In this document: positions 5,101 to 29,601 of the stretch, piece after piece
How positions within the stretch are numbered: position 1 is the stretch's first letter
Layout: every line of letters starts with the position of its first letter
From: Yinghuangia seranimata
GTDB lineage: Bacteria; Actinomycetota; Actinomycetes; Streptomycetales; Streptomycetaceae
Reading direction: 5' to 3'
NCBI RefSeq assembly: GCF_029953285.1
Contig: NZ_JASAOI010000017.1
Span: 186,001-250,000, forward strand
Length of the DNA: 64,000 nucleotides
Translations under genes and position numbers: made by a program
The notes under the pieces: generated by a model
Told to the model about the DNA's origin: nothing
The model's input: the letters and a program-made list of their open reading frames with translations, nothing else
Databases searched by the model: none

Positions 5101-5108
5101 CCGGAGGT

Positions 5109-6184: not shown

Positions 6185-6217
6185 CCCCTGCACTTCACCT
6201 GTGAGAGGAGCAAGGCC

Positions 6218-6661: not shown

Positions 6662-6667
6662 CCGCGC

Positions 6668-6713
6668 CCCGGGGCACCCGCCACTTCCGCCAAGAACCGC
6701 CGGGTGCCCCGGG
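6668..6713 (+). terminator. Hairpin after ssb
   Basis: Perfect 13-bp inverted repeat, CCCGGGGCACCCG (6668-6680) and its complement (6701-6713), with a 20-nt loop and no clear T run. It sits between ssb and the primase-polymerase gene. It is probably a partial terminator or mRNA-stability hairpin. Confidence 0.5.
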
Positions 6714-6754
6714 TCTCTCACCGCCCCTCACAGGGCAGACAGGAGACCTCCAGC

Positions 6755-8958: not shown

Positions 8959-9146
8959 TGAGCAACCCGGACGAGAAGCTCCCGCTGCGGGCCGTACTGA
9001 AGGAGATGGGCGTCTCCCGGGCCGCGTTCTACCGGATGCGTGCACGTGGTCAGGCTCCGACGCTCATCAAGATGCCGAACGGTCATCTCCGCGTGCGCCG
9101 CGCGGAGATGGACCGGTGGTGGGACGGACTCGAAGAGACCGCGTAA
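8958..9146 (+). CDS. xis: Excisionase, MerR-like winged helix-turn-helix
   Basis: A 62-residue protein that is all helix-turn-helix: LRAVLKEMGVSRAAFYRMRA is the recognition helix region and NGHLRVRRAEMDRWWDGLEE the wing and closing helix, as in AICE and phage Xis proteins of the AlpA/MerR-like type. It should bend attL/attR DNA and turn the integrase towards excision. It is translationally coupled to the ATPase (TGATG) and lies 63 nt before int. A hairpin between xis and int may uncouple their expression. Confidence 0.85.
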   Translation: MSNPDEKLPLRAVLKEMGVSRAAFYRMRARGQAPTLIKMPNGHLRVRRAEMDRWWDGLEETA

Positions 9147-9157
9147 GCGAGCCGCTT

Positions 9158-9185
9158 GGGCCCGTGTGCATCCGCGCACGGGCCC
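9158..9185 (+). terminator. Hairpin between xis and int
   Basis: Inverted repeat GGGCCCGTG (9158-9166) and CACGGGCCC (9177-9185) with a 10-nt loop, followed by CTTC rather than a T run. It could lower int expression relative to xis or stabilise the upstream mRNA. Confidence 0.5.
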
Positions 9186-9209
9186 TTCGCATGCCCTGGA
9201 AAGGAAGTC

Positions 9210-10580
9210 ATGCCCAAGCCGAGCTTTGACGTGCGGATCTGGGAGATCCGTGTGCGCAAGGGGAAGACCGGCCGCACGTCGGCCGAAGTCCGTTGGAAGG
9301 TCGCCGGTACCGCGTTCTCCGAGACGTTCCGGACGAAGACTCTCGCCGATGGCCGCCGCGCCGAGTTGCTGCGCGCGCTGCACGGGGGTGAGCCGTTCGA
9401 CGCCGTGACTGGTCTGCCGATGTCCGAGATCCGCATCCGCGATGACGTGGCGTGGTACGTCCACGCGCGCGAGTACATCGAGATGAAGTGGCCGACGGCG
9501 CCGGCGAAGACGCGGACCACGCTCGCCGATGCGCTCGCCACGGCAACGCCCGTGCTGGTCAAGGACCGTCGCGGCATGCCGGACAAGGCGCTCCTACGGC
9601 GCGCGCTGTACGGGTGGGCGTTCAACGTCAACCGATGGGAGGAGGAACCGCCCGAGGACATCGCCAACGCGCTCACGTGGGTGGAAGCGCATTCACTGCC
9701 GATGAGCGCGCTGGATGACGCCCCGATCATCCGGAAGGCCCTGACCGCGTTCACGCTTCGCCTGGATGGGACGGACGCGTCCGCGTCCACGGTCCGGCGT
9801 AAGCGCGCCATCTTCCACAACTCCCTTGGATACGCAGTGGAGATGTCGCGACTGAAGTCGAATCCGCTGCACGCGGTGCAGTGGAAGGCGCCTGACACGG
9901 CGACGGAAGTGGAGCCGGCCGCCGTGGTCAACCCCCGGCAGGCGCGGGTGCTTCTGGATGCCGTCCGGGCGCAGAGCAAGCGCGGCGAGCACCTCGAAGC
10001 GTTCTTCGGGTGCCTGTACTACGGCGCCATGCGGCCCGCGGAAGCGGTCTGGCTGCGCGTGGAGAACTGCTACCTGCCCAAGCATGGGTGGGGTGTCCTG
10101 CGCCTGGATGGGTCCCGTCCGCGCGTCGGATCCGCGTGGACCGACAACCGCAAGGCGCACGACGTCCGCGCGCTCAAGTGGCGCGCCAAGAAGGTCACAC
10201 GCCCGGTACCGATCCCTCCGGGGATGGTCGCGATGCTGCGCTGGCACGTCTACCGGTACGGCGTCGCGCCGGACGGGCGGCTCTTCCGCACCGCGCGCGG
10301 CGGCATCGTGCAGGAGAGCGGGTACGGCGAGGTATGGGCCAAGGCGCGCGCGGCGGCTCTCACGCCGCAACAGGTCGCCTCACCACTCGGCGCACGCCCG
10401 TACGACCTGCGACACGCCGGGGTGTCCCTGTGGCTCAACTCCGGGGTAGACCCGGCGGAAGTCGCCAAGCGCGCGGGGCACAGCATCGCCGTGTTGCTCA
10501 AGGTCTACGCCAAGTGCATGGACGGCGGGACCGACGCGGCGAACAAGCGGATCACCGACGCGTTCGGCGAGTGGGAGTGA
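9210..10580 (+). CDS. int: Tyrosine site-specific integrase of the AICE
   Basis: A 456-residue tyrosine recombinase. An N-terminal arm-binding region (about 1-60) and SAM-like core-binding domain (about 80-225) precede the catalytic domain. Catalytic residues visible are R275 (AMRPAEAV), R401-H402 in YDLRHAG (the usual first His is Tyr398), H424 (RAGHS) and nucleophile Y433 (LLKVYAK). The start is ATG 9210 with GGAAAGGAAG in front; an in-frame GTG-led extension at 9156 lies in the hairpin. It inserts the element into the 3' end of the tRNA-Tyr gene found 171 nt downstream. Confidence 0.93.
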   Translation: MPKPSFDVRIWEIRVRKGKTGRTSAEVRWKVAGTAFSETFRTKTLADGRRAELLRALHGGEPFDAVTGLPMSEIRIRDDVAWYVHAREYIEMKWPTAPAKTRTTLADALATATPVLVKDRRGMPDKALLRRALYGWAFNVNRWEEEPPEDIANALTWVEAHSLPMSALDDAPIIRKALTAFTLRLDGTDASASTVRRKRAIFHNSLGYAVEMSRLKSNPLHAVQWKAPDTATEVEPAAVVNPRQARVLLDAVRAQSKRGEHLEAFFGCLYYGAMRPAEAVWLRVENCYLPKHGWGVLRLDGSRPRVGSAWTDNRKAHDVRALKWRAKKVTRPVPIPPGMVAMLRWHVYRYGVAPDGRLFRTARGGIVQESGYGEVWAKARAAALTPQQVASPLGARPYDLRHAGVSLWLNSGVDPAEVAKRAGHSIAVLLKVYAKCMDGGTDAANKRITDAFGEWE

Positions 10581-10648
10581 CGGGCAATCCGCGGTCCGTC
10601 CGCGTCCACAGATAGGCCGCACGCGCTGGACAACACGGGATTTCCGCC

Positions 10649-10708
10649 GAGACAAGGTGAGACAGTCCCGGCATTTCAGGCACCGGACTGAGTGAGCAAA
10701 CGAGACAG
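10649..10708. other. Repeated GAGACA boxes near the attachment site
   Basis: GAGACAA (10649-10655), GAGACAG (10659-10665) and GAGACAG (10702-10708) lie between int and tRNA-Tyr. Short direct repeats beside the core are the usual form of integrase arm-type sites. This is inference from position and repetition only. Confidence 0.35.
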
Positions 10709-10745
10709 CCCCTGACCGCAAACATGCTGGTCAGGGGCTGTTTTT
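10706..10745 (+). terminator. Rho-independent terminator after int
   Basis: Perfect 12-bp stem CAGCCCCTGACC (10706-10717) and its complement (10729-10740), 11-nt loop, then TTTTT on the plus strand. It ends int transcription just before the oppositely oriented tRNA gene and may block readthrough into it. On the minus strand the T run is missing, so it is mainly a plus-strand terminator. Confidence 0.8.
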
Positions 10746-10751
10746 CGTGGG

Positions 10752-10834
<83 letters not shown>

Positions 10835-13368: not shown

Positions 13369-14226
13369 TCAGCGCCCGGCCATCGCCTCGAGGCGCCGGA
13401 TCCGCTCGTCCATCGGCGGGTGCGTCGAGAACATCTTCGTCAGCCCCTGCCCCCGCCGGAACGGGTTGGCGATCATCAGCGAGCTGGTCGCCTCGATGCG
13501 CGGCTCGGCGGGCAGCGGCAGCTGCTGGGTGCCCGCCTCGAGCTTGCGCAGCGCGCTGGCGAGGGCGAGCGGGTCGCCGGTCAGCTGGGCGCCGGACGAG
13601 TCGGCCTGGTACTCGCGGCTGCGGCTGATGGCGAGCTGGATGAGCGACGCCGCGATCGGCCCGAGGATCATCATCAGCAGCAACCCGAGCAGGCCCGGGC
13701 CCTCGTCGTCGTCGCCGCGGCCGATCGGGATCAGCCACGCGAAGTTGACGAGGAACATGATGACGCTGGCGAGCGCGCCCGCGACCGACGAGATGAGGAT
13801 GTCGCGGTTGTAGACGTGCGCGAGCTCGTGGCCGATCACACCGCGCAGTTCGCGCTCGTCGAGGATGCGCAGGATGCCGGTGGTGCAGCAGACCGCGGCG
13901 TTGCGCGGGTTGCGGCCGGTGGCGAACGCGTTGGGCGCCTCGGTCGGCGAGATGTACAGCCGCGGCATGGGCTGCCGCGCCTGCGTCGACAGCTCGCGCA
14001 CGATCCGGTACAGGCCGGGGTTCTCCGCCTCGCTGACGGGCCGGGCGCGCATCGAGCGCAGCGCGATCTTGTCGCTGTTGAAGTACGCGTAGCCGTTCGT
14101 GGCGAGCGCGACGATGAACGCGATGATCAGGCCGGTCCGGCCGAACGCGCTGCCGATCAGCAGGATGACCGCGGACATGCCGCCGAGCAGGGCGGCGGTC
14201 TTGAGCCCGTTGTGCTGGCGGTGCAC
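13369..14226 (-). CDS. htpX: HtpX zinc metalloprotease, membrane M48 family
   Basis: A 285-residue membrane protease. Two helices lie at about 10-50, the zinc motif HELAH at about residue 131 ([13 protein letters not shown]), two further helices at about 147-205 and the third zinc ligand in [10 protein letters not shown]. It is the full family length. It degrades misfolded membrane proteins and acts in envelope stress. It starts at GTG 14226 with GAGAGGAC upstream. It is next to the partial nuo operon but separated by about 110 nt, which probably carries its own promoter. Confidence 0.93.
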
Positions 14227-14336: not shown

Positions 14337-15977
14337 TCAGCCCAGCAGCCCCGGAACCGTCAGCACCCGCAGCACGATCTGCGGCGCCACCGACAGCACG
14401 ACGCCGAGCCCGAAGGCCAGGCCGATGGCGACCGCGAAGGGCGCTGGTACGCGCAACGTCCCGCCCGAGCCCAGGGTTCCCGCGGCCTCGCCGTCGCCCG
14501 CGACCGGCGGCGGGCCCGGCACCGGCGGCTGGAACAGCAGGGCCGTCCACACCAGGTAGTAGTAGAGCGCGACGACGACGTTGACGGCCATGACGACCGC
14601 GAGCCACCCCGTGCCGCCCGCGACCACCGACTGGAACACCGCGACCTTCGCGAACAGCCCCATCAACCCCGGCGGGAGCCCGGCCAGGCAGAGCAGGAAG
14701 AACGCCATCGCGAGCGCGAGCCACGGCCGGACGCGCACGAGGCCCCGGTAGTCGCCGACCACGCCGGTCGGCCGGTCGCGGCCGACCGTGGCGACCACCG
14801 CGAACGCGCCGAGGTTCATGACGGCGTACACCGCGAGGTACGCGACCGACGCGGGCAGCCGGTCGGCGAGGTCGGCCCCGTCCCCCGCCGCCGTCCCGAA
14901 CGGCACCAGCACGTAACCCGACTGCGCGATGGACGACCACGCCAGCAGCCGCACCGCGTCGCCGGAGCCCGTCGCCACGCGCACCGCGACCACGTTGCCG
15001 ACCGTCATCGTGAGCGCCGCCAGCACCGCCAGCGCGGGCCCCCACACATGCGCGTACGGCCGCAGCCCGATCCCCGCGACCAGCAGCAGCCCCGCGAACC
15101 CGGCCGTCTTCGACACCACAGACAGGTACGCGGCCACGGGCACCGGCGCGCCCCGATAGGTGTCCGGCAGCCAGAAGTGGAACGGCACCGCCGCGACCTT
15201 GAACGCGAAACCGACCAGCACCAGCCCTGCCCCGGTCGCCGCGACGGTGTCGAGCTTCGGGTCGAGCGTGGTCAGCGCCGCCGCGATCCGGTCGAGGTGG
15301 ACGGCGCCGGTCGCCCCGTAGAGCAGGCTGACGCCGAACAGCAGCACGGCGGTCGCGGCGACGGACAGCAGGAAGTACTTGAGCGCGGCCTCGCCGCCGC
15401 GCGCGTCGCGGCGCAGGCCGACCAGCGCGAAGGCGGGCAGCGACAGCGTCTCGAGCGCCACCACCAGCGTCACCAGGTCGCGCGCGGCCGCGAGGGTGAC
15501 CGCGCCGGCCACGGAAGCCAGCAGCAGGAAGTGGTACTCGCCGCCCGGCACGGCGCGGTCGGAGCCGCTCTCGTCGGCCCACGGCCGCGGCGCGGTCATC
15601 GGCATCGACAGCAGCACGACGACCGCCGCCGAGCCGATCAGCACCAGTTGCAGCACGAGCGTGAGGTCGGAGACGACGTACGAACAGGCCGGCGGCCCGC
15701 CGGTGGCCGGGTCCGCGGGCGCGCAGAACGTCGCCCGCCCGCCGCCGCGCAGCGGCAGCAGGAGCCCGAGCGCGGTCGCCAGCCCCGCGAGCGACAGCCA
15801 CGCCAGCCACACCTTGCGCGGGCCGCTCAGGAACAGGTCGGCGAGCAGCACCACGAGCGCGGCGGACGCGACGGCGAGCGGCGGCGCGATGGCCGCCCAG
15901 TCGATGTCCTGCACGAGCGACAGCGGCCCGTGCGCCGCCGCGAGCACGGAACCGCCGGTCGGCGGAACGGGGTTCAT
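14337..15977 (-). CDS. nuoN2: Complex I subunit N, partial nuo operon
   Basis: A 546-residue antiporter-like membrane subunit with about 14 helices. Family motifs include [19 protein letters not shown] (helix 5 Glu), [31 protein letters not shown] (helix 7 Lys) and [14 protein letters not shown]. It is one of three proton-pumping channels of the membrane arm. It is the last gene of the ten-gene operon, with its ATG start overlapping the nuoM2 stop (ATGA). Identity to the complete-operon NuoN (46747) is moderate in the core, but this copy lacks its Ala-rich inserted loop. Confidence 0.93.
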
Positions 15978-17548
15978 GCGCCGCCTCCCAGCAGTGCGCG
16001 CACGGCGGGATCGGTGACGGCGAGCAACGTCGCGGGCCACAGGCCGAGGACCACGGTGAACGCGACGAGCGGTGCCCACGCGACGACGTCGACGCGTCCG
16101 ACGTCCGGCAGCGGGTCGACGCGCACCAGCGGCGCGCCCTCCGCCATGGGCCCGACGTCGTCGGTCTCGGACGTCCCCGACGCGGCGAGCCCGGGGCCGC
16201 CGCAGACAGCGCGCACGATGCCCAGCATGTACGCGGCGGTCAGCACCGTCCCCAGCGCCGCCGCGACGAGCAGCACCAGGAACAGCCCTCGGCTGAGCTC
16301 GTCCGCCGGGTGGTAGGCGCCGTACATCGCGAGCAGTTCGCCCCAGAACCCGGCGAGCCCCGGCAGCCCCAGCCCCGCGACGGCCGCGAAGGCGAGCAGC
16401 CCGCCCAGGCGCGGCGCCCGCGCGTACAGGCTGCCGCCGATGCGGCCGAGCAGCGCGGTGCCGCTGCGTTCCTTGACCGCGCCGGCGAGGAAGAACAGCA
16501 GGCCGGTGATGAGGCCGTGCCCGATGTTGACGAACAGCGCGCCGTTGATGCCCTGCGCGGTCAGCGTCGCGATGCCGAGCAGCGCGAAGCCCATGTGGCC
16601 GACGGACGAGTAGGCGATGATCCGCTTCAGGTCGCCGTCGGGCGAGCGCAGCAGCGCGAGGCACACCAGCGAGCCGTACACGATCCCGACGGCGCCGAAC
16701 GCCCCCAGGTAGGGCGCGAACTCCTCGGCGCCCTGCGGCAGCGCCGGCACCGCGATGCGGACCAGCCCATACGTGCCCATCTTGAGCAGCACCCCGGCGA
16801 GCAGCACCGAGCCGCCGGTCGGCGCGGCCGTGTGCGCGTCGGGCAGCCAGGTGTGCAGCGGCCACATGGGCACCTTGACCGCGAGGCCGAGCCCGATCGC
16901 GAGGAACGCCGTGATCTGGACGCCGCGCGACATGCCGTCGCCGCCGCGCGCCGCCAGCTCGGTGATGTCGAACGTGCCGGTGTGCGCCTGGACGAGCAGG
17001 AAGCCCAGCAGCATGAGCGCCGAGCCGAGCAACGTGTACAGGATGAACTTGAAGGCCGCGGGGCCGCGTTCGCCAGGGGTGCCCCATCGCGCGATGAGGA
17101 AGTACATCGGGACGAGCACGACCTCGAACGCCAGGAAGAACAGGATGAGGTCGAGCGCCGCGAAGGTGCCCAGCACGCCGGCTTCGAGGACGAGCACGAG
17201 CGCGACGTACGCGCGGGCGCTCCCGCCGTCCGGAAGTTTCCCCAGGCTGTGGACGGCGACCAGGAACGTCAGCAGCGCGGTCAGCACGATCAGCGGCAGC
17301 GAGATGCCGTCCACGCCGAGGTGGAAGCGCAGCCCGAGCGACGACGCCCACGCCCGGTCGGTCTCGAACTGCATGGTGCGCGCGTCGTCGCGGTCGAACG
17401 CGCCGGCGAGCACGACGGTCAGGCCCAGCACGGCGCCGGTCACGGCGACCCCGGCGTACCGCGCCCGACGGTCGTCCACAGGGAACGCGATGAGGGCGGA
17501 CCCGGCGATCAGCGGCAGCACGATGGCGACGATCAGCACGACGCTCAT
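15974..17548 (-). CDS. nuoM2: Complex I subunit M, partial nuo operon
   Basis: A 524-residue antiporter-like subunit. The catalytic Glu lies in [20 protein letters not shown], the channel Lys in [19 protein letters not shown] (about residue 220), and [20 protein letters not shown] is the helix 10-11 signature. It is full length with 14 predicted helices. The start at 17548 overlaps the nuoL2 stop (ATGA). It pumps protons as part of the membrane arm of the partial complex. Confidence 0.93.
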
Positions 17549-19467
17549 GCCCGCACCGCCACGGTGACCGCGAGCACCACGAATCCGGCGAGCACTCCGG
17601 CGAGGTACACCTGCACGTTTCCGTTCTGGCTGCGTCTGACGCCGCCGCCCGCGAGCCAGGTGCCCTGGGCGGCGGCGTGCACGTAGCCGTCGATGACGAC
17701 GCGGTCGACGAACCGGGTGGCGCGCGCGGCGAGCCACACCGGGCGTACGACGACCGCGTCGTACAAGCGGTCGACGTCGAAGCCGCGTTCGGCGGGCCCG
17801 CGCAGGCGCCCGAGGACGCGCGCCGGGTCGGCCGCCGGGTCGCGGCGCCACAGCGCGTACACGGCGCCCGCGCCCAGCGCGAGGAGCGCGACGGCGGCGA
17901 GCGACGTGCCCAGCCGGGGCGCGAGGTCGTAGTACGCCGGGGCCTGCAGCAGCAGGCCGTTCGCCGCGTCGGCGCTGCCGTACGCGCGTCCGTCGGCGTC
18001 GCCGAGCCACGCCGGCAGCCACGATTCGTTCAGGCCGATGACGCCGAGCAGCACCGTCGGGACGGTCAGCACGGCGAGCGGCCACAGCATCAGGACCGGC
18101 GTGGGCCCGTGCGGTTCGGGCGCCGGCTTGCGCGCCTCGCCGAAGAACACCCGCAGCCACAGCCGCGTCGCGTACGCCGCGGTCAGCCCGGCCGTCAGCA
18201 CGCCCGCGACGATCACCAGCCAGCCCGTGACGGCGGGCGGCGCCCCCGCTCCCCCGTCGATCGCGGTGTGCTCGGCCGCGCCGAGCACCGCCTCCTTGCT
18301 GAAGAAGCCGGACAGCGGCGGAACGCCGACCAGCGCCCCGAGCCCGGCCGTCATCGTCCAGAACACCAGCGGTTCGCGCCGCCGCAGCCCGCCCATGTCG
18401 CTGATCCGGCCGGTGCCCGCCAGGTGGATGACCACGCCCGCGGCGAGGAACAGCAGCGCCTTGAACGCGCCGTGCGTGAGCAGGTGGAAGACCGCCGCGT
18501 CGCGCCCGCCGGCCGCCAGGCCGCCGGTCATGTACGCGAGCTGGCTGACCGTCGACCAGGCGAGCACCCGTTTGAGGTCGTCCTGCGCGAACGCGAACAG
18601 CGCCGAGGAGACCATGGTCAGCGCGGCCATGACGGCGAGCACGACGAGCGTGGCGTCCGACGCGAGGAACACCGGGTACAGGCGGGCCACGACGTACGCG
18701 CCCGCCGCGACCATGGTGGCGGCGTGGATGAGCGCGCTGACCGGTGTCGGGCCGGTCATCGCGTCGGGAAGCCAGGTCTGCAGCGGGACCTGCGCCGACT
18801 TGCCGGCCACGCCGCCGAGCATGAGCAGCGTCCCCGCGGTCGCCCAGCCGGCGCCGCCCGGCGGCACGCCGTCGACGATCGCGCCGATGCGGAACGAGCC
18901 CGCGCCGACCCCGAGCACCAGGACGCCGATGAGGAACGGCACGTCGCCGAGCTTGGTGACCAGGAACGCCTTCACCGCGGCGGCGCGCGCGACCTCGGTC
19001 TCCCAGTAGTGCCCGATCAGGAAGTACGAGCACACGCCCATGACTTCCCAGCCGACCAGCAGCACGATCAGGTCGCCGGTGTAGACGACCAGCAGCATCG
19101 CGGCGCTGAACAGCGAGATCAGCGCCGCGTACGACGAGTAGCGCGGGTCCTTGCGCATGTAGGCCGCGGAGTAGACCTGCACGAGCAGCGCGACCGTCGC
19201 GACCAGCGCGGCGACGATCGCCGAGAGTCCGTCGACCCGCATGGACAGCGTGATGTCGAGCGCGCCGGTCGGGGTCAGCTCGGTGCCGTGCTCGGTCACA
19301 CCGCCGGAGTCGTGCCGTACCGCGACCGCCCAGGTGAGCAGCACGGAAGCGGCGAGCGGCAGGGTCGCGAGCGCCCGTGCGGCCGCAGGGAAGCGGCGGC
19401 CGAACGCCAGTCCGAGGACGGCGGCGAGGAACGGCAGGCCGGTGGCCAGCGCCGCTGCCGTGGTCAT
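17545..19467 (-). CDS. nuoL2: Complex I subunit L, partial nuo operon
   Basis: A 640-residue distal antiporter-like subunit, full length including the C-terminal helix-lateral-helix-helix extension (about 500-640). Motifs are [59 protein letters not shown] and [18 protein letters not shown]. It pumps protons. The ATG at 19467 overlaps the nuoK2 stop (ATGA). Retention of an intact lateral helix indicates a full-size membrane arm. Confidence 0.93.
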
Positions 19468-19838
19468 GCGGCCTCGCTTCCGGGTCGGGTCCTGGCGGTA
19501 CGGAGCCGGCGCCGGGCCCGCGGCACCGCGCCCGGCTCGGCGAGGTCGCGCAGCGCCGACACGTCCGACGTCGCGCGGTTGCGGAAGATCATGAGCACGA
19601 TCGCCAGGCCGAGTCCGATCTCGGCGGCCGCGATCGTGATGACGAACAGCGTGAGCGCCTGACCCGCGTGCAACGTGTCGCGCAGCCACATGTCGAACGC
19701 GACGAGGTTGACGTTGACGGCGTTCAGCATCAGCTCGACCGACATCAGCACCAGGACGGCGTTGCGGCGCGCGAGGACGCCGTACAGGCCGATGCCGAAC
19801 AGCAGCACCGCGAGCACCAGCGGATAGACGAGGTGCAT
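19464..19838 (-). CDS. nuoK2: Complex I subunit K, partial nuo operon
   Basis: A 124-residue three-helix subunit. The two functional glutamates are in [15 protein letters not shown] (helix 2) and [15 protein letters not shown] (helix 3). An Arg-rich C-terminal tail of about 25 residues ([13 protein letters not shown]) is absent from the 99-residue copy at 52016. It couples the quinone module to the antiporter-like pumps. It lies 4 nt after nuoJ2. Confidence 0.92.
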
Positions 19839-19842
19839 CGGA

Positions 19843-20439
19843 TCACCGCCCCTTGCCGTCGGCGTCGGCGCGGCCCCGCGACAGCACGATCGCGCCGATC
19901 AGCGCCGCGAGCAGCAGCACCGACAGCACCTCGAACGGCAGCACCCACACCCGGAACAGGCTCTCGCCGGTCACCCGCGCCGAACCGTCGTCGGTCTTCC
20001 CGAGGTCGAGGTACGCGCTGTGGAACGCGTCGACGACGACGGTCAGCAGCGTCGCCGTCGCCCCGACCGCCACCAGCACGGCCGGCCACCGCTTCAGCGA
20101 GTCCAGCTCGGTCGACCGGCCGATCGGCGCCCGGGTCAGCATGAGGCCGAACAGCAGCAGCACGACGACCGCGCCGATGTAGATGAGCACTTGCACCCAC
20201 GCGATGAACTCGGCGGTCAGCAGCAGGTACTCGGCGGCCAGGCCGCCGAGGGTCACGACGAGCCACAGCGCGGCGTGCACGATCTGGCTGGTCGTCACGA
20301 CGAGCAGCGCCGAGCCGAGCACGACCAGGCCGATGAGGACGAACGCCACCTCGGCCCCGGTCGGCGACAGGAACCCCGGGCCGCCGCGGCCGGACAGGTC
20401 GGCGGCCGCGACCGTGGCCGCGGCGAGACCGGCGGTCAC
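19843..20439 (-). CDS. nuoJ2: Complex I subunit J, partial nuo operon
   Basis: A 198-residue five-helix subunit containing [20 protein letters not shown], the conserved helix 3 with its pi-bulge glycine region, and ending in a short charged tail. It has normal family length, unlike the 349-residue NuoJ at 52312, which carries a long hydrophilic extension. The ATG at 20439 overlaps the nuoI2 stop. It forms part of the ion path next to NuoK and NuoH. Confidence 0.92.
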
Positions 20440-21023
20440 GCGTCACCGCCGGGGGACGCCGGGCCGTTCGGCTCGCGCCCCTGCGGCTGCTCCTGCTCGA
20501 GCTCCTTGGCGAGCTTGGCGGCGTTGCGGCGCGCCATCGCCAGCTCCTTCGGCTCCTCGGCCCGCTCGTCGAGCGGGGGCGGGGCGGGCACCGTCCACAT
20601 CCACTCGCGCAACGTGTCCTTCTCGTGGGTCAGCGCCTGAATGTCGTCGGTCGCGTACTCGAACTCCGGCGACCAGAACAGCGCGTCGAACGGACACACC
20701 TCGACGCAGATCCCGCAGTACATGCACAGCGCGAAATCGATCGCGAAACGGTCGAGGACGTTGCGGGTCCGGTCGCGCGCGCCCGGCTCCTTCGCCGGCA
20801 CGACCTCCTTGTGCGAGTCGATGTAGATGCACCAGTCCGGGCACTCGCGCGCGCACAGCATGCAGACCGTGCAGTTCTCCTCGAACAGCGCGATCACCCC
20901 GCGCGAACGCGGCGGCAGCTCCGGCAGCACCTCGGGATAGCCCTGGGTGACGGAACGCTTCGTCATCGTCTTCAGCGTGACGGCCAGGCCCTTGGCGAGA
21001 CCCGCGCCGGGGATCCTGCTCAT
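20436..21023 (-). CDS. nuoI2: Complex I ferredoxin-like subunit I, partial nuo operon
   Basis: A 195-residue subunit with two [4Fe-4S] motifs, [12 protein letters not shown] (about 51-62) and [12 protein letters not shown] (about 98-109), clusters N6a and N6b. These pass electrons from the peripheral arm to cluster N2 in NuoB. In this operon no NuoE, F or G exists, so NuoI2 is the outermost iron-sulfur subunit and the likely docking point for a ferredoxin. A Pro/Glu-rich C-terminal tail (about 140-195) has no cofactor motif. Its ATG overlaps the nuoH2 stop. Confidence 0.93.
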
Positions 21024-21979
21024 GCGATCGCCACCCTCACGACACCCGTCAGGACGAGCTGCGCCAGCGCGAGCGGGATGAGGCCCGTCCAGGCGAGCTT
21101 CTGGAGCTGGTCCTCGCGCAGCCGCGGGTAGCTGACGCGCAGCCAGATCACGACGAACGCGAGGACGCCGGTCTTCAGCAGCGTCCACAGCCAGCCGAGG
21201 TCGTCCGACCAGGGCCCGTGCCAGCCGCCGAGGAACAGCACCGTGGTCAGCGCGCACAGGACGAGGATCCCGGCGTACTCGGCGAGCAGGAACAGCGCGA
21301 ACCGCAGGCCGGTGTACTCGGTGTACGCGCCGAAGATGATCTCCGAGTCGGCCACCGGCATGTCGAACGGCGGCCGCTGCAACTCGGCGAGCCCCGCGGT
21401 GAAGAACACCACGCCGCCGACCGCCTGCCAGGGCAGCCACCACCACTCCCACTGGCCGAGGATGCCGGTGAGCGACAGCGTCCCGGCCGCCATGGCCACG
21501 GACGCGCCGGCGAGCAGCATCGGCAGCTCGTACGCCATCAGCTGCGCGGCGGTGCGGAGCGATCCGAGCAGCGAGAACTTGTTGGCGGACGCCCAGCCGC
21601 CCATCAGCGACCCGAGCACCCCGACGCCCATGACGGCGAGCACGAAGAACACGCCCGCGTCGATGCTGCGCCCGACGAGGTCGCCGGACCCGACGGGGAT
21701 CGCGATGAGCACGACCATGTACGGGATGAGCGCGATCGCGGGAGCGAGCCGGAACACCCGGCGGTCGGCCCCGGCGGGGACGACGTCCTCCTTCTGGGCG
21801 AACTTGACCCCGTCGGCCACCAGTTGCGCCCATCCGTGGAACGCTCCGGCGTAGATGGGGCCGACGCGGGCCTGCATGTGTCCCATGACCTTGTGCTCGG
21901 TCTGCCCGATCACCAACGGGAAAACCAGGAACGCGGCGAGCACGAGCGCCAGGCGGACGAGCACCTCGACGACGGTCAC
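21020..21979 (-). CDS. nuoH2: Complex I subunit H, partial nuo operon, altered quinone motif
   Basis: A 319-residue subunit with eight helices that forms the quinone chamber. [20 protein letters not shown] and GVKFAQKED are conserved. The normally strict [13 protein letters not shown] segment reads [15 protein letters not shown] here: the Asn-Arg and both acidic E positions differ, while the copy at 53963 keeps [14 protein letters not shown]. This suggests a modified quinone/NuoD interface, consistent with the missing nuoD. The following [16 protein letters not shown] is retained. Its start overlaps the nuoC2 stop. Confidence 0.92.
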
Positions 21980-23037
21980 GCGTCCTCCTCGGACGAGGGG
22001 CTGGGCGGCTCAGCAGTGGGCGGCTCGACGGACGGGGGCTCGGCACCAGGCGGCGCGGAGGACGGCGGCTCAGGCGCGGGCGGCGCGGCAGGCGGCACGT
22101 CCTGACTCGCGGAGCCGTCGGACGCACGCCGAGCGCGGCGCGGCCGACCGGCGGGCGGCTGCGGCTCTGGCCGCGACTCCGGCTCCGGCGATGGTGGCGC
22201 TTCCTCCGGAGCCGGGGTCTGCCGGCTCGTCGAGCCGTCGGACGCACGCCGGGCGCGGCGTGGCCCGTCGGCGGGTGGCTGCGGCGCCTGCTCCGGCTCC
22301 GATTCGGGCGACGGCGGTGCTTCCTCCGCGTCTCCGGGCTTTTGGCTGGCGGAGCCCTGGGAGGCGCTTCGGGTGCGGCGGGGGCGGTCCGGGCGGGCGG
22401 GGCGGTCGCCTGGGGTGCGGCCTGCACGGCCGACGCGGGGGGCTTCGGGCTCGTCGGGGGCCGGTTCGGGCGCGGGCTCGGTGGCGTGCGGGCCCCACTC
22501 CGCCGGGTCGGGGACGCCGGGAGGCAGTATGCGGCGGCGACCCGGCGAGCGGGCCGCGCCGGTGTGCGCGTCGGACTCGCCGGGCTCCTTGGCGCCCGGC
22601 CACGGCTTGGCGACGCGGGAGGCCAGGATGAAGTCCTTGCGCAGCGGGTGGCCTTCGAAGCCCTCGGGCAGCAGCAGCGGGACCGGGTGCGGGTGGGCGT
22701 CGAAGACGACGCCGAACATCTCGGCGGTCTCCCGCTCGTGCCAGGCGGCGCCGGCGTAGACGCCGGTCGCCGTCGGGAGGTGGGCGGCGTCGCGGGGGAC
22801 GCGGGTGCGCAGGAGCAGCCGCGGGCCCGGCGCGGTGCACAGGTGCGCGGCGACGGTGAACCCGTCGGCGAGCTCGTCGACGGCGGTGAGCCAGTCGAAG
22901 TACGTGAGGCCGAGCTCGTCGCGGGCCGCGGTGAGCGCCTCGATCCAGCGGTCGGCCGGCACGTCCACGGTGGTGAGGCCGTACGCGTCGGACACCGCGA
23001 CGTCGCCGAGCGCGCCGCGGATCTCGTCGGGTGTCAC
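21976..23037 (-). CDS. nuoC2: Complex I subunit C, with long repetitive C-terminal extension
   Basis: A 353-residue protein. The NuoC 30-kDa domain (about 1-165) has [16 protein letters not shown], the signature [20 protein letters not shown] and [10 protein letters not shown]. Residues from about 165 are a Pro/Ala/Glu/Arg-rich, probably disordered tail with three related basic boxes, [27 protein letters not shown] and [13 protein letters not shown], separated by acidic Pro-rich spacers. The start GTG 23037 overlaps the nuoB2 stop (GTGA). NuoC normally pairs with NuoD, which is absent here. Confidence 0.88.
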
Positions 23038-23660
23038 ACCGCACCGCCGGGGGGCGTCTCGTCGGTGCCGCCCGCGCCCGGGGCGGCCGGGGGCTCGACC
23101 AGCGGGCGGCGCAGCGCCGCCGCCGGGACCGCGGGTGCCGGGGCGGGTGCTGCGTAGCGGTCCGCCAGCGACTCCGTGGCGATCTTCTCCTGGAGTTTGA
23201 GGATGCCCTGGAGCAGCGCCTCGGGGCGCGGCGGGCAGCCCGGCACGTAGACATCGACGGGGATGATCTGGTCGACGCCCTTGGTGACGCAGTACGAGTC
23301 CCAGTAGGGGCCGCCGCAGTTCGCGCAGGAGCCGAACGAGATCACGTACTTGGGCTCCGGCATCTGCTCGTAGAGCCGCTTGATCGCGGGGGCCATCTTG
23401 TCGGTCACCGTGCCGGACACGATCATCAGGTCGGCCTGCCGCGGCCCGGGCGCGAACGGGATCACGCCGAGCCGGATGAAGTCGTGCTTGGCCATCGACG
23501 ACGCGATGAACTCGATCGCGCAGCAGGCCAGCCCGAAGTTGAAGACCCACAGCGAGTAGCGGCGCCCCCAGTTGAGGACCAGCCGCATCGGGTCGGGGGC
23601 CAGGCGCGAGAGCGGACCGAGCTTGGGGGTCGGGAGGGCGACCGGAGCACGCCGGGTCAC
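23034..23660 (-). CDS. nuoB2: Complex I subunit B (cluster N2), partial nuo operon
   Basis: A 208-residue subunit carrying all N2 ligands: the adjacent Cys pair in [24 protein letters not shown] and [30 protein letters not shown] is the family signature. An Ala/Pro-rich tail (about 165-208) is extra. Unlike the NuoB at 62212 it has extra cysteines in CANC and DSYC. GTG 23660 overlaps the nuoA2 stop (GTGA); GTG 23666 is an equally possible start. With NuoD missing, N2 would lack its usual quinone-side partner unless a trans subunit joins. Confidence 0.92.
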
Positions 23661-24034
23661 GTCCACGTCAGCACGCCCTTCCGCCAGGCGTAGAGGAGGC
23701 CGACGGCGAGGAAGCCGACGAACACGAACATCTCGACGAGCGTCGTGGTGCCGAAGCCGGGGTCGGCGAAGACGGTCGCCCACGGGAACAGGAAGATCGC
23801 GTCGACCGCGAAGATCACGTACAGGTAGGCGTAGATGTAGTAGCGGATGTGGGTCTGCGCCCAGCCCTCGCCGACGGGGTCGACCCCGCACTCGTAGGTC
23901 ATCAGCTTCTCGACGTTCGGCGCGTGCGGCCGCAGCAGGCGGTTGGCCGCGAACGCCACGGACACGAAGCCGCCGCCGACGAGCAGGACGAGGCCGACGA
24001 GCGCGTACGTACTGAAGTAGCCGTGTGCGGTCAC
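23657..24034 (-). CDS. nuoA2: Complex I subunit A, partial nuo operon
   Basis: A 125-residue three-helix subunit, first gene of the operon. It has the conserved [11 protein letters not shown] loop (the conformationally switching Cys loop) and [27 protein letters not shown] 24034 has GAGAGGAC upstream. The next six genes follow with 4-nt overlaps (nuoK2 lies 4 nt after nuoJ2), so nuoA2-N2 is one transcription unit read leftwards. Confidence 0.92.
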
Positions 24035-24278: not shown

Positions 24279-25610
24279 ATGTCGACTGCTGGTACTACCG
24301 TGCCCGATGCCGAGCGCCGCGCCCGGGTGCCGCGCCCCGGGTTCTGGCGCGCGCCGATCAGCGCGCGCACGTGGGGCGAGACGATCCACCTCACGCTGAA
24401 CCTGTTCGTAGGCACCGTCGGCTTCATATTCGTCGTCGTGCTCGTCACGCTCGGCGTGGGCCTGACGCCGCTGTTCCTGGTCGGCCTGCCGATGCTGGCC
24501 GGCACCGTCATCTCGTGCCGCGGCTGGGGCGCCATGGAGCGCGCCCGGGCGCGCGCCCTGATGGGCGAGGACACACTCGCCCCGGCACCGTTCAAGCAGA
24601 AGTCGTCGGGCGCGTGGGGCTGGATCAAGAGCGGGCTGGGCGACGGCCCTGGCTGGCGCGCAGCGCTCTACCTGTTCCTGATGCTGCCGTGGGGCATCTT
24701 CACCTTCACCATGGCGGTGACGCTGTGGGCGGTGACGCTGTCGCTGATCGCCTATCCGGCGCTGCAGCCGCTGTACCGGATGGCCGACCAGCCGGGCGCG
24801 ATGCTGTGGGGCGACGGGCCCAAGCAGCCGGGCGACGACTTCTACGTCGCGGGCCCGCTGTGGGTGACGGTGACGGTGCTGATCGGCGTCGTGATGCTGT
24901 TCCTGACGCCGCAGCTGATCCGCGGCCTGGCGTGGGTCGACCGGGTGATGGTGCGCGCGCTGCTGGGCACCGCGTTCCTGTCGCAGCAGGTGCAGGAGCT
25001 GACTGAGAGCCGCGGCGCGGCACTCGACACCGGCGCGGCCGACCTGCGGCGCATCGAGCGCGACCTGCACGACGGCGCGCAGGCCCGTCTGGTGTCGCTG
25101 GCCATGGACCTGGGCCTGGCCAAGGAGAAGATGAACGAGGACCCCGAGTCGGCGCAGCGCATGGTCTCGGAGGCGCACAACGAGGTGAAGCTCGCGCTGC
25201 GCGAGCTGCGCGACCTGGCGCGCGGCATCCACCCGGCGGTGCTGACCGACCGCGGCCTGGACGCGGCGCTGTCGGCGGTGGCCGCGAAGTGCACGGTGCC
25301 GGTCCAGGTGACGGTGGACCTGCCGCTGCGGCCGAGCGCGCCGGTGGAGACGGCCGCGTACTACTGCGTGAGCGAGCTGCTGACCAACGTGTCGAAGCAC
25401 AGCGGCGCGACGTCCGCCAAGGTGACGGTTTCCGCGCGCGGCAAGCAGCTTTACGCGGTGGTGGAGGACAACGGGCGCGGCGGCGCCGACCCGGCGCACG
25501 GGACCGGTCTCGCGGGGCTGGGCGAGCGGGTGCGCGGCGTCGGCGGGGCGCTGCACGTGGACAGCCCGGTGGGCGGCCCGACGCGGGCGACGGTCACTCT
25601 TCCGCTGTAG
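24279..25610 (+). CDS. NarL-type sensor histidine kinase
   Basis: A 443-residue membrane kinase. Hydrophobic segments at about 38-78, 128-160 and 190-212 form the sensor region without a clear extracellular domain. HisKA_3 contains RRIERDLHDGAQARLVSLAM with phospho-acceptor H264. The HATPase domain shows ELLTNVSKHSGA (N box) and VEDNGRGG plus GLAGLGERV (G boxes). It starts at ATG 24279, divergent from nuoA2. The response regulator begins 149 nt downstream on the same strand. The signal is unknown; adjacency to nuo2 and kor suggests redox or energy sensing. Confidence 0.92.
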   Translation: MSTAGTTVPDAERRARVPRPGFWRAPISARTWGETIHLTLNLFVGTVGFIFVVVLVTLGVGLTPLFLVGLPMLAGTVISCRGWGAMERARARALMGEDTLAPAPFKQKSSGAWGWIKSGLGDGPGWRAALYLFLMLPWGIFTFTMAVTLWAVTLSLIAYPALQPLYRMADQPGAMLWGDGPKQPGDDFYVAGPLWVTVTVLIGVVMLFLTPQLIRGLAWVDRVMVRALLGTAFLSQQVQELTESRGAALDTGAADLRRIERDLHDGAQARLVSLAMDLGLAKEKMNEDPESAQRMVSEAHNEVKLALRELRDLARGIHPAVLTDRGLDAALSAVAAKCTVPVQVTVDLPLRPSAPVETAAYYCVSELLTNVSKHSGATSAKVTVSARGKQLYAVVEDNGRGGADPAHGTGLAGLGERVRGVGGALHVDSPVGGPTRATVTLPL

Positions 25611-25759: not shown

Positions 25760-26404
25760 GTGCGCGTCGTCATCGCTGAGGATTCCGTACTGCTGCGGGA
25801 CGGGCTCACCCGTCTGCTGGTCGATCGCGGGCACGAGGTGGTGGCCGCCGTCGACGACGCCGAGCAGCTGCTGGCCGTGGCCGCGGAGTTGAAGCCGGAC
25901 GTGTGCGTGGTCGACGTCCGGATGCCGCCGTCGTTCACCGACGAGGGGATCCGCGCCGCCGTGCGGATGCGGGAGCGGCTGCCGGACGTCGGCGTGCTGA
26001 TCCTCTCCCAGGCGGTGGAGGAGCAGTACGCGACGGAGCTGCTGGCCGGCAACACCAGCGGGGTGGGATACCTGCTGAAGGACCGGGTCGCCGACGTGGG
26101 CGACTTCGTCGACGCGGTGGTGCGGGTGGCCAACGGCGGGACGGCGCTCGACCCCGAGGTGGTGTCGCAACTGCTGGGGCGCAGCCGCAAGCAGAACGTG
26201 ATCGTCACGCTGACCCCGCGGGAGCGCGAAGTGCTCGGCTATATGGCCGAGGGCCGCAGCAATACGGCGATCGCGCAGGCGATGGTCGTGTCCGACGGGG
26301 CGGTCGAAAAACACGTCAGCAACATCTTCGGAAAGCTGGGACTGGCCCCCAGTGAGACCGATCACAGAAGGGTGCTGGCGGTACTCGCTTATCTCGGATC
26401 CTGA
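25760..26404 (+). CDS. NarL/LuxR-family response regulator
   Basis: A 214-residue regulator. The receiver domain (1-120) has acidic residues E7 and D8, phospho-acceptor D52 (VVDVRMPP) and K107 (YLLKDRV). The LuxR-type helix-turn-helix (about 150-205) reads LTPREREVLGYMAEGRSNTA with VEKHVSNIFGKLGL. The GTG at 25760 follows GGGAGG. It is the partner of the upstream kinase. Targets are unknown; nearby nuo2 and korAB are candidates. Confidence 0.92.
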   Translation: MRVVIAEDSVLLRDGLTRLLVDRGHEVVAAVDDAEQLLAVAAELKPDVCVVDVRMPPSFTDEGIRAAVRMRERLPDVGVLILSQAVEEQYATELLAGNTSGVGYLLKDRVADVGDFVDAVVRVANGGTALDPEVVSQLLGRSRKQNVIVTLTPREREVLGYMAEGRSNTAIAQAMVVSDGAVEKHVSNIFGKLGLAPSETDHRRVLAVLAYLGS

Positions 26405-26651: not shown

Positions 26652-28514
26652 GTGACCAAACAGGTCAAGCAGATCGACCGGGTCGTCATCCGGTTCGCGG
26701 GCGATTCCGGTGACGGAATGCAGTTGACCGGAGACCGTTTCACGTCCGAAACCGCAAGTTTCGGAAACGACCTGTCGACTCTGCCCAACTTCCCCGCCGA
26801 GATCCGCGCGCCAGCCGGAACCCTGCCGGGCGTCTCCAGCTTCCAGCTCCACTTCGCCGACCACGACATCCTCACGCCGGGCGACGCCCCGACGGTCCTG
26901 GTCGCGATGAACCCCGCCGCACTCAAGGCCAACATCCGCGACCTGCCCCGCGGAGCCGAGATCATCGTCAACACCGACGAGTTCTCCAAGCGCGCCATGG
27001 CCAAGGTCGGGTACGCGACCAACCCGCTCGAAGACGGCTCGCTGGACGCGTACAACATCCACGCCGTGCCGCTCACGACGCTCACGGTCGACGCGCTCGC
27101 CGAGTTCGACATCTCCAAGAAGGACGCCGAGCGCGCGAAGAACATGTTCGCGCTGGGCCTGCTGTCGTGGCTCTACCACCGGCCGACCGAGTCGACGATC
27201 GCGTTCCTCAAGAAGAAGTTCGCCAAGCTCCCCGTGATCGCCGAGGCCAACGTCGCGGCGTTCAAGGCGGGCTGGAACTTCGGCGAGACCACGGAGGGCT
27301 TCGCGGTCTCCTACGAGGTCGCGCCCGCAAAGCTGCCGGCCGGCACGTACCGCAACATCACCGGCAACCTGGCGCTGTCGTACGGCCTGGTCGCCGCGGG
27401 TCAGCGCGCCGAGCTCCCGGTGTACCTCGGGTCGTACCCGATCACCCCGGCCTCGGACATCCTGCACGAGCTGGCCAAGCACAAGAACTTCAACGTGCGT
27501 ACGTTCCAGGCGGAAGACGAGATCGCCGGCATCGGCGCGGCCCTCGGCGCCGCTTTCGGCGGAGCTCTCGGCGTCACCACCACCTCGGGACCGGGTGTCG
27601 CGCTGAAGTCCGAGGCGATCGGCCTGGCGGTCTCCCTCGAACTGCCGCTGCTGATCGTCGACGTCCAGCGCGGCGGCCCGTCCACGGGTCTGCCGACGAA
27701 GACCGAGCAGTCCGACCTGCTGCAAGCCATGTTCGGCCGCAACGGCGAGGCGCCGGTGCCGATCGTCGCGCCGCGCACCGCGGGCGACTGCTTCGACGCC
27801 GCCATCGAGGCCGCCCGGATCGCGCTGAAGTACCGCACGCCGGTCTTCCTGCTGTCCGACGGCTACCTGGCCAACGGCTCCGAGCCGTGGCGCATCCCGA
27901 ACGTCGACGAGCTGCCCGACCTGCGCGTGGAGTTCGCGACCGAGCCGAACCACGAGACCGAGGACGGCACCAAGGTCTTCTGGCCGTACAAGCGCGACCC
28001 CGAGACGCTCGCGCGTCCGTGGGCCGTGCCCGGTACGCCCGGCCTCGAGCACCGCATCGGCGGCATCGAAAAGGCGGACGGCACCGGCGCGATCAACTAC
28101 GAGCCGGCGAACCACGACTTCATGGTGCGCACGCGCCAGGCCAAGGTCGACGGCATCGCCAAGGACATCCCGGCGCTGGAGGTCGACGACCCGACCGGCG
28201 ACGCGAAGGTCCTCGTGGTGGGCTGGGGTTCCACCTACGGCCCGATCGCCGCGGGTGTGCGGCGGGTGCGGAGCCAGGGCGGCAAGGTCGCCCAGGCGCA
28301 CTTCCGGCACCTCAACCCGTTCCCGGCGAACACCGAGGAAGTCCTCAAGAAGTACGACAAGGTGATCGTCCCCGAGATGAACCTGGGGCAGCTGGCGATG
28401 CTGCTGCGCGCCCGGTACCTCGTGGACGCCATCTCGTACAACCAGGTCCGCGGCCTGCCGTTCAAGGCCGAGGAACTGGCCCATGTGATCCAGGGGGTCA
28501 TCGAAGATGTCTGA
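26652..28514 (+). CDS. korA: 2-oxoacid:ferredoxin oxidoreductase, alpha subunit (gamma-alpha fusion)
   Basis: A 620-residue subunit of the thiamine-diphosphate enzyme that oxidises 2-oxoglutarate (or another 2-oxoacid) to the acyl-CoA and reduces ferredoxin. The N-terminal gamma domain starts VVIRFAGDSGDGMQLTGDRF. The alpha domain holds the YPITPASDILHELAKH pyrimidine-binding region, FQAEDEIAGIGAALGAAFGG and VDVQRGGPSTGLPTKTEQSD. GTG 26652 follows GAGGAGG. It overlaps korB by 8 nt. Substrate choice (2-oxoglutarate rather than pyruvate) is taken from the usual actinomycete pair and is not proven by sequence. Confidence 0.9.
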   Translation: MTKQVKQIDRVVIRFAGDSGDGMQLTGDRFTSETASFGNDLSTLPNFPAEIRAPAGTLPGVSSFQLHFADHDILTPGDAPTVLVAMNPAALKANIRDLPRGAEIIVNTDEFSKRAMAKVGYATNPLEDGSLDAYNIHAVPLTTLTVDALAEFDISKKDAERAKNMFALGLLSWLYHRPTESTIAFLKKKFAKLPVIAEANVAAFKAGWNFGETTEGFAVSYEVAPAKLPAGTYRNITGNLALSYGLVAAGQRAELPVYLGSYPITPASDILHELAKHKNFNVRTFQAEDEIAGIGAALGAAFGGALGVTTTSGPGVALKSEAIGLAVSLELPLLIVDVQRGGPSTGLPTKTEQSDLLQAMFGRNGEAPVPIVAPRTAGDCFDAAIEAARIALKYRTPVFLLSDGYLANGSEPWRIPNVDELPDLRVEFATEPNHETEDGTKVFWPYKRDPETLARPWAVPGTPGLEHRIGGIEKADGTGAINYEPANHDFMVRTRQAKVDGIAKDIPALEVDDPTGDAKVLVVGWGSTYGPIAAGVRRVRSQGGKVAQAHFRHLNPFPANTEEVLKKYDKVIVPEMNLGQLAMLLRARYLVDAISYNQVRGLPFKAEELAHVIQGVIEDV

Positions 28515-29601
28515 GGCCACGGCTTCCGCAAACGGGGCCGGCGCGAACGGCCGCAGCGGCTTCCCGTCGCTCACCCTCGTCCCGAAGACGGACGAGAAGC
28601 AGACCATGAAGGACTTCAAGTCCGACCAGGAAGTGCGCTGGTGCCCTGGCTGCGGTGACTACGCGATCCTCGCCGCGGTCCAGGGCTTCCTCCCGGAGCT
28701 CGGGCTGCGCAAGGAGAACATCGTGTTCGTGTCGGGCATCGGCTGCTCCAGCCGGTTCCCGTACTACATGAACACGTACGGCATGCACTCGATCCACGGG
28801 CGCGCCCCGGCCATCGCGACCGGCCTGGCGTCGTCGCGGCAGGACCTGAGCGTGTGGGTGGTCACCGGCGACGGCGACGCGCTGTCCATCGGCGGCAACC
28901 ACCTGATCCACGCGCTGCGCCGCAACGTCAACCTGAAGATCCTGCTGTTCAACAACCGGATCTACGGTCTGACCAAGGGCCAGTACTCGCCGACGTCGGA
29001 GTCCGGGAAGATCACGAAGTCGACCCCGCTCGGGTCGCTCGACCACCCGTTCAACCCGATCAGCGTGGCGATCGGCGCCGAGGCGACCTTCGTCGCGCGC
29101 ACGATCGACTCCGACCGCAAGCACCTCACCTCGGTGCTGCGCGAGGCGGCCGCGCACCCGGGCACCGCGCTGGTGGAGATCTACCAGAACTGCAACATCT
29201 TCAACGACGGTGCGTTCGACCAGCTCAAGGACCCGGACACGCGTGACGACGTCACGATCCGGCTCGAGCACGGTCAGCCGATCACCTTCGGCAAGGACGG
29301 GCAGTTCGGCGTCATCCGCGGCGCGTCCGGCTCGCTGGACGTCGCCGAGGTGGCGAAGGTCGGCACCGACGCGCTCGTGGTGCACGACGCGCACGCCGAG
29401 AACCCGGAGCTGGCGTTCGCGCTGTCCCGGCTCGGCGACCTGACGAGCAACTTCCACACCCCGATCGGCGTGTTCCGCAACGTCGAACGGCCGGTGTACG
29501 ACACCCTGATGGCCGAGCAGCTGGCCACCGACACCGCGAACCGCGGCGCCGGCGACCTGGCCTCGCTCATCTCGGGCAACGACACCTGGACGATCGCCTG
29601 A
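28507..29601 (+). CDS. korB: 2-oxoacid:ferredoxin oxidoreductase, beta subunit
   Basis: A 364-residue beta subunit. WCPGCG (C46, C49), GCSSRFPYY (C80) and YQNCNIFNDG supply the [4Fe-4S] ligands. The thiamine-diphosphate motif is GDGDALSIGGNHLIHALRRN with FNNRIYGLTKGQYSPTS. No ferredoxin domain is fused, so electrons go to a separate ferredoxin. It is coupled to korA by an 8-nt overlap and followed by a strong hairpin at 29623. Together the pair gives an oxidative TCA-cycle step that stores energy in reduced ferredoxin. Confidence 0.92.
   Translation: MSEATASANGAGANGRSGFPSLTLVPKTDEKQTMKDFKSDQEVRWCPGCGDYAILAAVQGFLPELGLRKENIVFVSGIGCSSRFPYYMNTYGMHSIHGRAPAIATGLASSRQDLSVWVVTGDGDALSIGGNHLIHALRRNVNLKILLFNNRIYGLTKGQYSPTSESGKITKSTPLGSLDHPFNPISVAIGAEATFVARTIDSDRKHLTSVLREAAAHPGTALVEIYQNCNIFNDGAFDQLKDPDTRDDVTIRLEHGQPITFGKDGQFGVIRGASGSLDVAEVAKVGTDALVVHDAHAENPELAFALSRLGDLTSNFHTPIGVFRNVERPVYDTLMAEQLATDTANRGAGDLASLISGNDTWTIA

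Follow-up and report, generated by a model that had tools for sequence, protein, structure and literature searches.

An 11-subunit complex I without an NADH module, probably encoded at two loci in Yinghuangia seranimata, with its membrane arm apparently deleted in several lineages

In the known family of complex I enzymes without an NADH module, electrons enter via NuoI and pass cluster N2 in NuoB to reduce menaquinone, and NuoL, NuoM and NuoN pump protons. Here we describe a relative of these enzymes, the nuo2 operon of Yinghuangia seranimata, which lies in a stretch of 64,000 nucleotides (the window; positions 186001-250000 of contig C108, in a genome of 9.8 Mb in 113 contigs), and its partner gene nuoD2, which stands alone on contig C4. 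Judging from gene content and comparison with relatives, the two loci probably specify a single NADH-module-free complex I of 11 subunits, from which the membrane arm has been deleted in several lineages.

The closest described system is the second nuo cluster of Streptomyces (SCO4599-SCO4608 plus a separate nuoD2), which is of the same operon type and has the same neighbours. The separation of nuoD2 from this operon has already been published (PMC3765725, PMC8388888), the operon is expressed as one transcript (PMC3765725) and its products are among the abundant proteins of S. coelicolor (PMC9739823). The function of the cluster has been called unclear (PMC9239103), and the same paper describes it as lacking NuoC and NuoL, whereas nuo2 of the window has both. 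Complex I of 11 subunits without NuoEFG, as in Desulfitobacterium (PMC11238625), has the same composition (NuoA-D and NuoH-N) once NuoD2 is counted, but here NuoD is supplied in trans, tryptophan replaces tyrosine in it and NuoA2 carries FAVD.

The operon consists of ten minus-strand genes (window 14337-24034): nuoA2 (23657-24034; NCBIfam NuoA models, with FAVD in place of the FDxE motif), nuoB2 (23034-23666; four cysteines for cluster N2 and a GGPYWDSY loop), nuoC2 (21976-23037; a long Pro/Ala-rich tail past about residue 140), nuoH2 (21020-21979), nuoI2 (20436-21023; two 4Fe-4S motifs), nuoJ2 (19843-20439), nuoK2 (19464-19838), nuoL2 (17545-19467), nuoM2 (15974-17548) and nuoN2 (14337-15977). 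All ten products match complex I subunit families (NuoC2 over its first 140 residues only), and NuoL2, NuoM2 and NuoN2 align along their length to their nuo1 counterparts. All reading frames are intact and neighbours overlap by 4 bases, apart from A2/B2 (10 bases) and J2-K2 (a 4-base gap), which bears out, coordinates included, an earlier note on this DNA that had described ten intact and tightly overlapping genes. That note had also stated that the NADH module is missing, and indeed nuo2 holds neither nuoD nor the nuoE, nuoF and nuoG that accompany the operon of a 14-subunit NDH-1 (E, F and G were looked for at the operon only, not genome-wide). Since its products share only 30-49% identity with those of the complete nuo1 operon in the same window, nuo2 is an old paralogue and no recent copy. 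A tRNA-Arg call inside nuoH2 (21347-21439) was taken as chance. The tail of NuoC2 (window 21976-22560) comprises about 200 Pro/Ala-rich residues with near-repeats; NuoC2 of genome G018 is likewise long (485 residues), most other fetched NuoC2 are not.

The eleventh subunit is encoded elsewhere. A genome-wide search for nuoD, as the earlier note had proposed, returned three PF00346 genes: nuoD1 of the complete operon (window 60102-61463, minus strand) and two others, a duplicate on contig C7 and the solo nuoD2 (C4:99574-100722; L010:11572-12723). The note's remark that NuoD is missing consequently holds for the operon and fails for the genome. NuoD2 has 383 residues and is 40-42% identical to NuoD1 and to the C7 protein; at the positions of its Trp and Arg, NuoD1 carries Tyr and Thr. 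The C7 gene (C7:65077-65934; L009:8646-9938), next to which no nuo gene was called, was rejected as the partner of nuo2, its product being 76% identical to NuoD1 and joining the NuoD1 group in the tree. Loss of nuoD from the operon during assembly, a possibility raised in the note, can be set aside, since the same split layout recurs in genomes assembled as one contig (G018 and G095, for example), with nuoD2 some 200-290 kb from nuoH2. As NuoD2 completes the 11-subunit set, nuo2 of the window is not wholly the "different kind of complex" that had been offered as an option, and the other option, supply of NuoD from the complete operon, is not needed given a solo, co-inherited nuoD2 with relatives between C2 and H2.

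Outside the class the same genes are found together. Across the phylum, 138 of 246 genomes gave a match to NuoD2 with an E value no higher than 1e-74 (the class accounts for 11 of the 138, and some matches are not true NuoD2). Twenty loci were fetched from other classes: at 18 of them nuo2 is one 11-gene operon in which nuoD2 follows C2 and precedes H2 (nuo1 genes are in view at nine), and the remaining two (G366, G157) carry other NuoD types. In a NuoD tree of 101 rows all 61 solo NuoD2 group together with a Shimodaira-Hasegawa-like approximate likelihood ratio (SH-aLRT) support of 100. Their clade is sister to 8 of the 18 operonic rows and lies within the spread of the whole operonic set, and the 20 NuoD1-type rows, including the C7 duplicate, form a separate clade. 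Given that the solo proteins are a single clade within the operonic family, a single departure is indicated. The comparison thus supports an ancestor with one operon A-B-C-D-H-I-J-K-L-M-N, which nuoD2 would have left a single time, ahead of the divergence of the known solo genes, with both loci co-inherited since. Among the named loci (the 80 best of 582, most of them from Streptomyces), that of Solihabitans fulvus (L243) has nuoD2 about 0.3 kb beyond the end of nuoN2 and facing it, and G022 is alike; either the excision left these traces or the gene came back later.

Co-inheritance was examined in a class-level sample of 148 genomes, 127 of which form a good set (at least 90% complete, at most 5% contaminated). 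The nuoD2 set comprises match rows that reach the C-terminus of the query at an identity of at least 40%, plus fragments in G021 and G097; NuoD1 rows end near residue 308 of the NuoD2 query, which is the basis for separating the two. The sets for nuoI2, nuoH2, PF02636 and korA were read off the match tables in the same way. Over all 148 genomes nuoD2 is found in 67, nuoI2 in 70 and nuoH2 in 41, and nuoH2 occurs without nuoD2 in two genomes only, G014 (72% complete) and G108 (80% complete). Within the good set, 54 genomes have both nuoD2 and nuoI2, one has nuoD2 only (G070), one nuoI2 only (G004) and 71 neither.

These counts bear on the idea that nuo2 products assemble around a shared NuoD1, or that nuo1 and nuo2 subunits mix in hybrids. 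A hybrid machinery has been suggested in print (PMC9239103), and nuo1 and nuo2 adjoin in many genomes. Nonetheless we consider this very unlikely: each of the 33 nuoH2 genomes of the good set also has nuoD2, the 71 genomes without the module lack it, its relatives sit within the 11-gene operon and, as detailed below, NuoD2 changes together with NuoB2 when the membrane arm is lost, whereas NuoD1 does not.

Such losses were found among the 28 of 148 genomes that have nuoD2 and lack nuoH2. Two were set aside: G097 is 77% complete, and G070 was rejected as armless and attributed to a broken assembly because its nuoM2 lies on a separate contig. A second nuoB is present in all 26 that are left, and in 24 of these the locus consists of nuoB2-C2-I2, without A2, H2 and J2-N2; the other two, G030 and G016, are described separately below. 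The three-gene locus also occurs in G004, G023 and G042, all incomplete genomes, a full NuoD2 not being found in them; in total 29 of 148 genomes are armless and keep B2-C2-I2, 26 of them with solo nuoD2. A search for nuoM2 orthologs found none in any of the 26 armless nuoD2 genomes, which were the ones it covered (G004, G023 and G042 were not). The neighbours seen in the window recur at the 24 loci: a YajQ-family gene at 22, korA at 15 and htpX at 9. The single-contig genome G030 shows a deletion that looks half done, with a NuoA2 of 93 residues, a NuoH2 of about 123 residues with internal gaps, no J2-N2 at the locus, and B2, C2 and I2 intact. The C2-I2 stretch of G016 is split over contigs and was first noted as an assembly break; this genome was finally counted as armless because nuoI2 is followed by htpX with J2-N2 absent, no A2 was seen in the korA-B2 interval and a search of the genome returned neither an H2 nor an M2 ortholog. 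As a separate observation, G030 carries a further complex I- or hydrogenase-like membrane cluster (L155:4787-13000), whose products share 29-42% identity with NuoA, NuoH, NuoK, NuoL, NuoM and NuoN.

Armless rows fall at three places in the NuoD2 tree, namely a clade of 23, G030, and G016, which lies within the genus of the ten-gene genomes G087 and G141. Monophyly of all armless rows is rejected by the approximately unbiased test (p 4e-6; 72 rows, with 7 long-branch armless rows dropped and NuoD1 rows excluded). Strongly supported branches force at least two losses of the arm, and the tree points to probably three independent ones; regain of the arm is a less likely alternative.

To describe what happened to the remaining subunits, we compared alignment columns in which one residue reaches at least 90% identity in ten-gene NuoB2 (or NuoD2) and the same residue does so in NuoB1 (or NuoD1). 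The sets comprise 36 ten-gene and 25 armless NuoD2 (G096 was not fetched), 24 and 29 NuoB2, and 19 each of NuoD1 and NuoB1, 18 of them from armless genomes (among the 20 nuo1 regions fetched, G087 and G128 gave none). Armless NuoD2 keeps 83% of cells in 91 test columns, armless NuoB2 63% in 57. Columns counted as lost are conserved in the ten-gene form and no longer so in the armless one. In NuoB2 they concentrate in residues 24-81 (27 of 39), with retention of 7% for F44, 24% for R76, 3% for Q77 and 7% for L80; NuoB1 of the same genomes retains the residues of this stretch. In armless NuoD2, the stretches 20-45 and 129-146 account for 15 of the 28 lost columns (retention of T31 20%, E133 24%, F144 12%), and G016 differs from its congener G087 at five places within 129-142. 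Alignment to Thermus Nqo4 places the His38 loop, and the helix that follows residue 135, within these two stretches; we take them to line the quinone cavity and to face NuoH. A hydroxylated arginine of the NuoB loop has been placed near the quinone (PMC3750175). After arm loss, NuoB2 and the unlinked NuoD2 thus decay together while NuoD1 does not, which suggests that NuoD2 touches the operon's subunits in the ten-gene form.

Other residues stay. Each cluster N2 cysteine is kept in 28 of 29 armless NuoB2, as is the Trp of GGPYWDSY, and both four-Cys motifs are present in the 18 NuoI2 examined. Arg58 and Trp81 are found in 61/61 solo and 18/18 operonic NuoD2, where NuoD1 has Thr and Tyr (19/19); the quinone-site His is kept in 60 of 61 solo NuoD2 and the Tyr is replaced by Trp in all 61. 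Because pocket residues decay and ligands and family-specific residues stay, we consider the armless core to be a working enzyme that does not need a quinone pocket. With slightly less than even odds in our estimation, NuoB2-C2-D2-I2 could be an autonomous soluble redox enzyme, that is, a Q-module that has shed membrane arm, pump and quinone pocket. Cluster N2, together with Trp81, His79 and Arg58 of NuoD2 and GGPYWDSY of NuoB2, would then reduce or oxidise a partner, and the membrane arm of the ten-gene form would be an optional attachment to this core. It is for these armless B2-C2-I2 relatives that the earlier suggestion of a different kind of complex may hold.

It might also be argued that the armless B2-C2-D2-I2 set is an alternative peripheral arm, docking onto the nuo1 membrane arm and passing it electrons from ferredoxin. 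All 26 armless nuoD2 genomes match NuoH at the level of a paralogue, many of the loci lie beside nuo1, and cyanobacterial NDH-1 offers an example of a shared arm with exchangeable parts (named in PMC3765725). The decay of residues 24-81 of armless NuoB2 (R76, Q77 and L80 in particular), kept by NuoB1, and of T31, E133 and F144 of armless NuoD2 makes such docking unlikely in our view; that these residues face quinone, NuoH and NuoA is taken from the Nqo4 numbering, PMC3750175 and general knowledge of complex I structure. Far less probable still is that the armless loci are remnants heading to loss. The decay in progress in G030 (short NuoA2 and NuoH2, no J2-N2) and the branch lengths reached by armless NuoD2 (as much as 2.98) would fit such an end; yet the three-gene locus is kept in 29 genomes, the N2 cysteines persist as stated, Trp81 and Arg58 occur in all armless NuoD2 read, and the armless clade of 23 rows is old.

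Arg58 leads to a further gene. Gene calls covered 35 of 40 nuoD2 loci and 23 of 27 B2 loci, and the commonest neighbour family of nuoD2 (22 of the 35 loci) has as its G030 member a protein of PF02636, the methyltransferase family to which NDUFAF7 presumably belongs. PF02636 is found in 62 of 148 genomes, 58 with nuoD2 and 4 without; in the good set the numbers are 49 with both, one with PF02636 only and six with nuoD2 only. The two genes lie within 10 kb of each other in 51 of the 58 genomes, 11-13 kb apart in two (including the genome of the window) and on separate contigs in five. Among 14 control genomes only Caulobacter and Synechococcus have PF02636, E. coli giving no match, and at 4 of the 18 eleven-gene loci a weak relative (26-30% identity) follows nuoN2. 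NDUFAF7, an orthologue of MidA, symmetrically dimethylates Arg-85 of NDUFS2 and is required for assembly (PMC3829151). The bovine peptide around the methylated arginine reads KCDPHIGLLHRGTEK, and the residue sits about 7 A from N2; in the Thermus enzyme the place is taken by Thr, and in E. coli by an unmethylated Arg (PMC3750175). At this place NuoD2 has HR and NuoD1 HT. The likeness to NDUFAF7/MidA (PMC3829151) is that a PF02636 protein tracks the NuoD that carries HRG at the methylated place; unlike it, the present system is bacterial, the gene lies near a solo nuoD2 and methylation is a prediction. On this basis Arg58 of NuoD2, which adjoins cluster N2, is the probable methylation target of the NDUFAF7-family protein.

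Divergent from nuo2 the window holds, on the plus strand, a sensor histidine kinase (24327-25610; Pfam Sensor, HisKA_3 and HATPase_c), a response regulator of LuxR type (25760-26404), korA for the alpha subunit of a 2-oxoacid:acceptor oxidoreductase (26652-28514; TIGR03710 above cut-off) and korB for its beta subunit (28507-29601; PorB/KorB-type models, all below their cut-offs). AbrC1/AbrC2 stand at the place of the kinase in S. coelicolor and AbrC3 at that of the regulator (PMC9739823). On the other side, htpX (13369-14226, minus strand) follows nuoN2 and is a neighbour in many relatives. A divergent korA within 9 kb upstream was found at 68 of the 71 ten-gene loci that could be tested, most of them from Streptomyces, and at 18 of the 27 armless loci, counts in which a few contigs are doubled, at least two (L176 = L121, L247 = L162). 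The pair at window 26652-29601 is of one type with KorAB of Mycobacterium tuberculosis, a 2-oxoacid:ferredoxin oxidoreductase of two subunits; the latter is reported as an enzyme of the tricarboxylic acid cycle, in an account that does not trace its electrons to a complex I (PMC2773412).

In the mechanism we propose, ten subunits from the operon and NuoD2 from C4 would assemble into an 11-subunit complex I without NADH module. Electrons would enter at NuoI2, most likely from ferredoxin, and pass via cluster N2 in NuoB2 to menaquinone at an altered NuoB2/NuoD2/NuoH2 site (Trp for Tyr), with protons pumped through NuoL2, NuoM2 and NuoN2; the NDUFAF7-family enzyme would methylate Arg58 of NuoD2. 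KorAB is a tentative candidate for the electron donor, as a source of reduced ferredoxin. In several lineages the membrane subunits would have been deleted and B2, C2, I2 and D2 kept, probably as a soluble iron-sulphur enzyme acting with some partner. The gene content agrees with the 11-subunit type (A, B, C and H-N in the operon plus D2 on C4, with one operon in the other classes), and the ligands of N2 and of the two NuoI clusters are present; here, though, nuoD2 lies apart, and of the conserved His and Tyr of NuoD the former is kept and the latter is Trp. The NuoD2 sequence has no CxxC pair, of which a group 4 [NiFe] hydrogenase would show two, and all Fpo models listed stay below their cut-offs (FpoD, for instance, at 297.6 of 600 bits; FpoF was not searched).

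Several observations weigh against this picture. The Tyr to Trp change at the quinone site means that quinone reduction or coupling may differ. The same may be true of coupling in view of NuoA2, where FAVD in 28/28 ten-gene loci read, against FDVE in 18/18 eleven-gene loci, leaves the ten-gene form without the usual acidic pair. The other 13 of the 28 lost columns of armless NuoD2 lie outside the quinone-side stretches, and the Fisher tests of co-occurrence take no account of relatedness among genomes. Nine nuoD2 genomes give no PF02636 match; of the four with PF02636 and no nuoD2, three are 72-80% complete, but G069 is 94% complete. Finally, korA is near none of 19 loci of other classes, and it occurs in 61 of 70 nuoI2 genomes (missing from 9) and in 55 more without nuoI2; this wide distribution weakens KorAB as a dedicated partner of nuo2, and we do not regard it as one.

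Two observations concern other parts of the genome. What seems to be an integrated element of actinomycetes occupies window 1-10834, at a tRNA-Tyr gene (10750-10834, minus strand), with an integrase-like gene (9210-10580; weak PF00589 match, below cut-off), a primase-polymerase gene (6869-7816) and a gene for single-stranded DNA-binding protein (6218-6661). Two gene groups on contigs C7 and C32 (L013, L014) encode NuoB-like small subunits adjoining apparent [NiFe]-hydrogenase large subunits.

Summarizing, nuo2 of the window is best read as an 11-subunit complex I with one displaced gene, which is partly known already. In the literature searched, which covered few subscription journals, we did not find the armless core, the 11-gene ancestor or the methyltransferase link; apparently new are the armless B2-C2-I2 loci, the association of the NuoD2 arginine with an NDUFAF7-family protein and the Tyr to Trp replacement. 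For the second nuo cluster of Streptomyces, the subunit list can thereby be completed and its history interpreted as that of an 11-gene operon whose central gene was lost to another place. The NDUFAF7 modification, required for human complex I assembly, may thus have a counterpart, the predicted methylation, in bacteria that carry both a methylatable NuoD (Arg) and a non-methylatable one. The natural deletions of the arm amount to an evolutionary experiment that separates the electron-carrying core from the proton pump, and their repetition suggests that the electron-handling core can be useful by itself.

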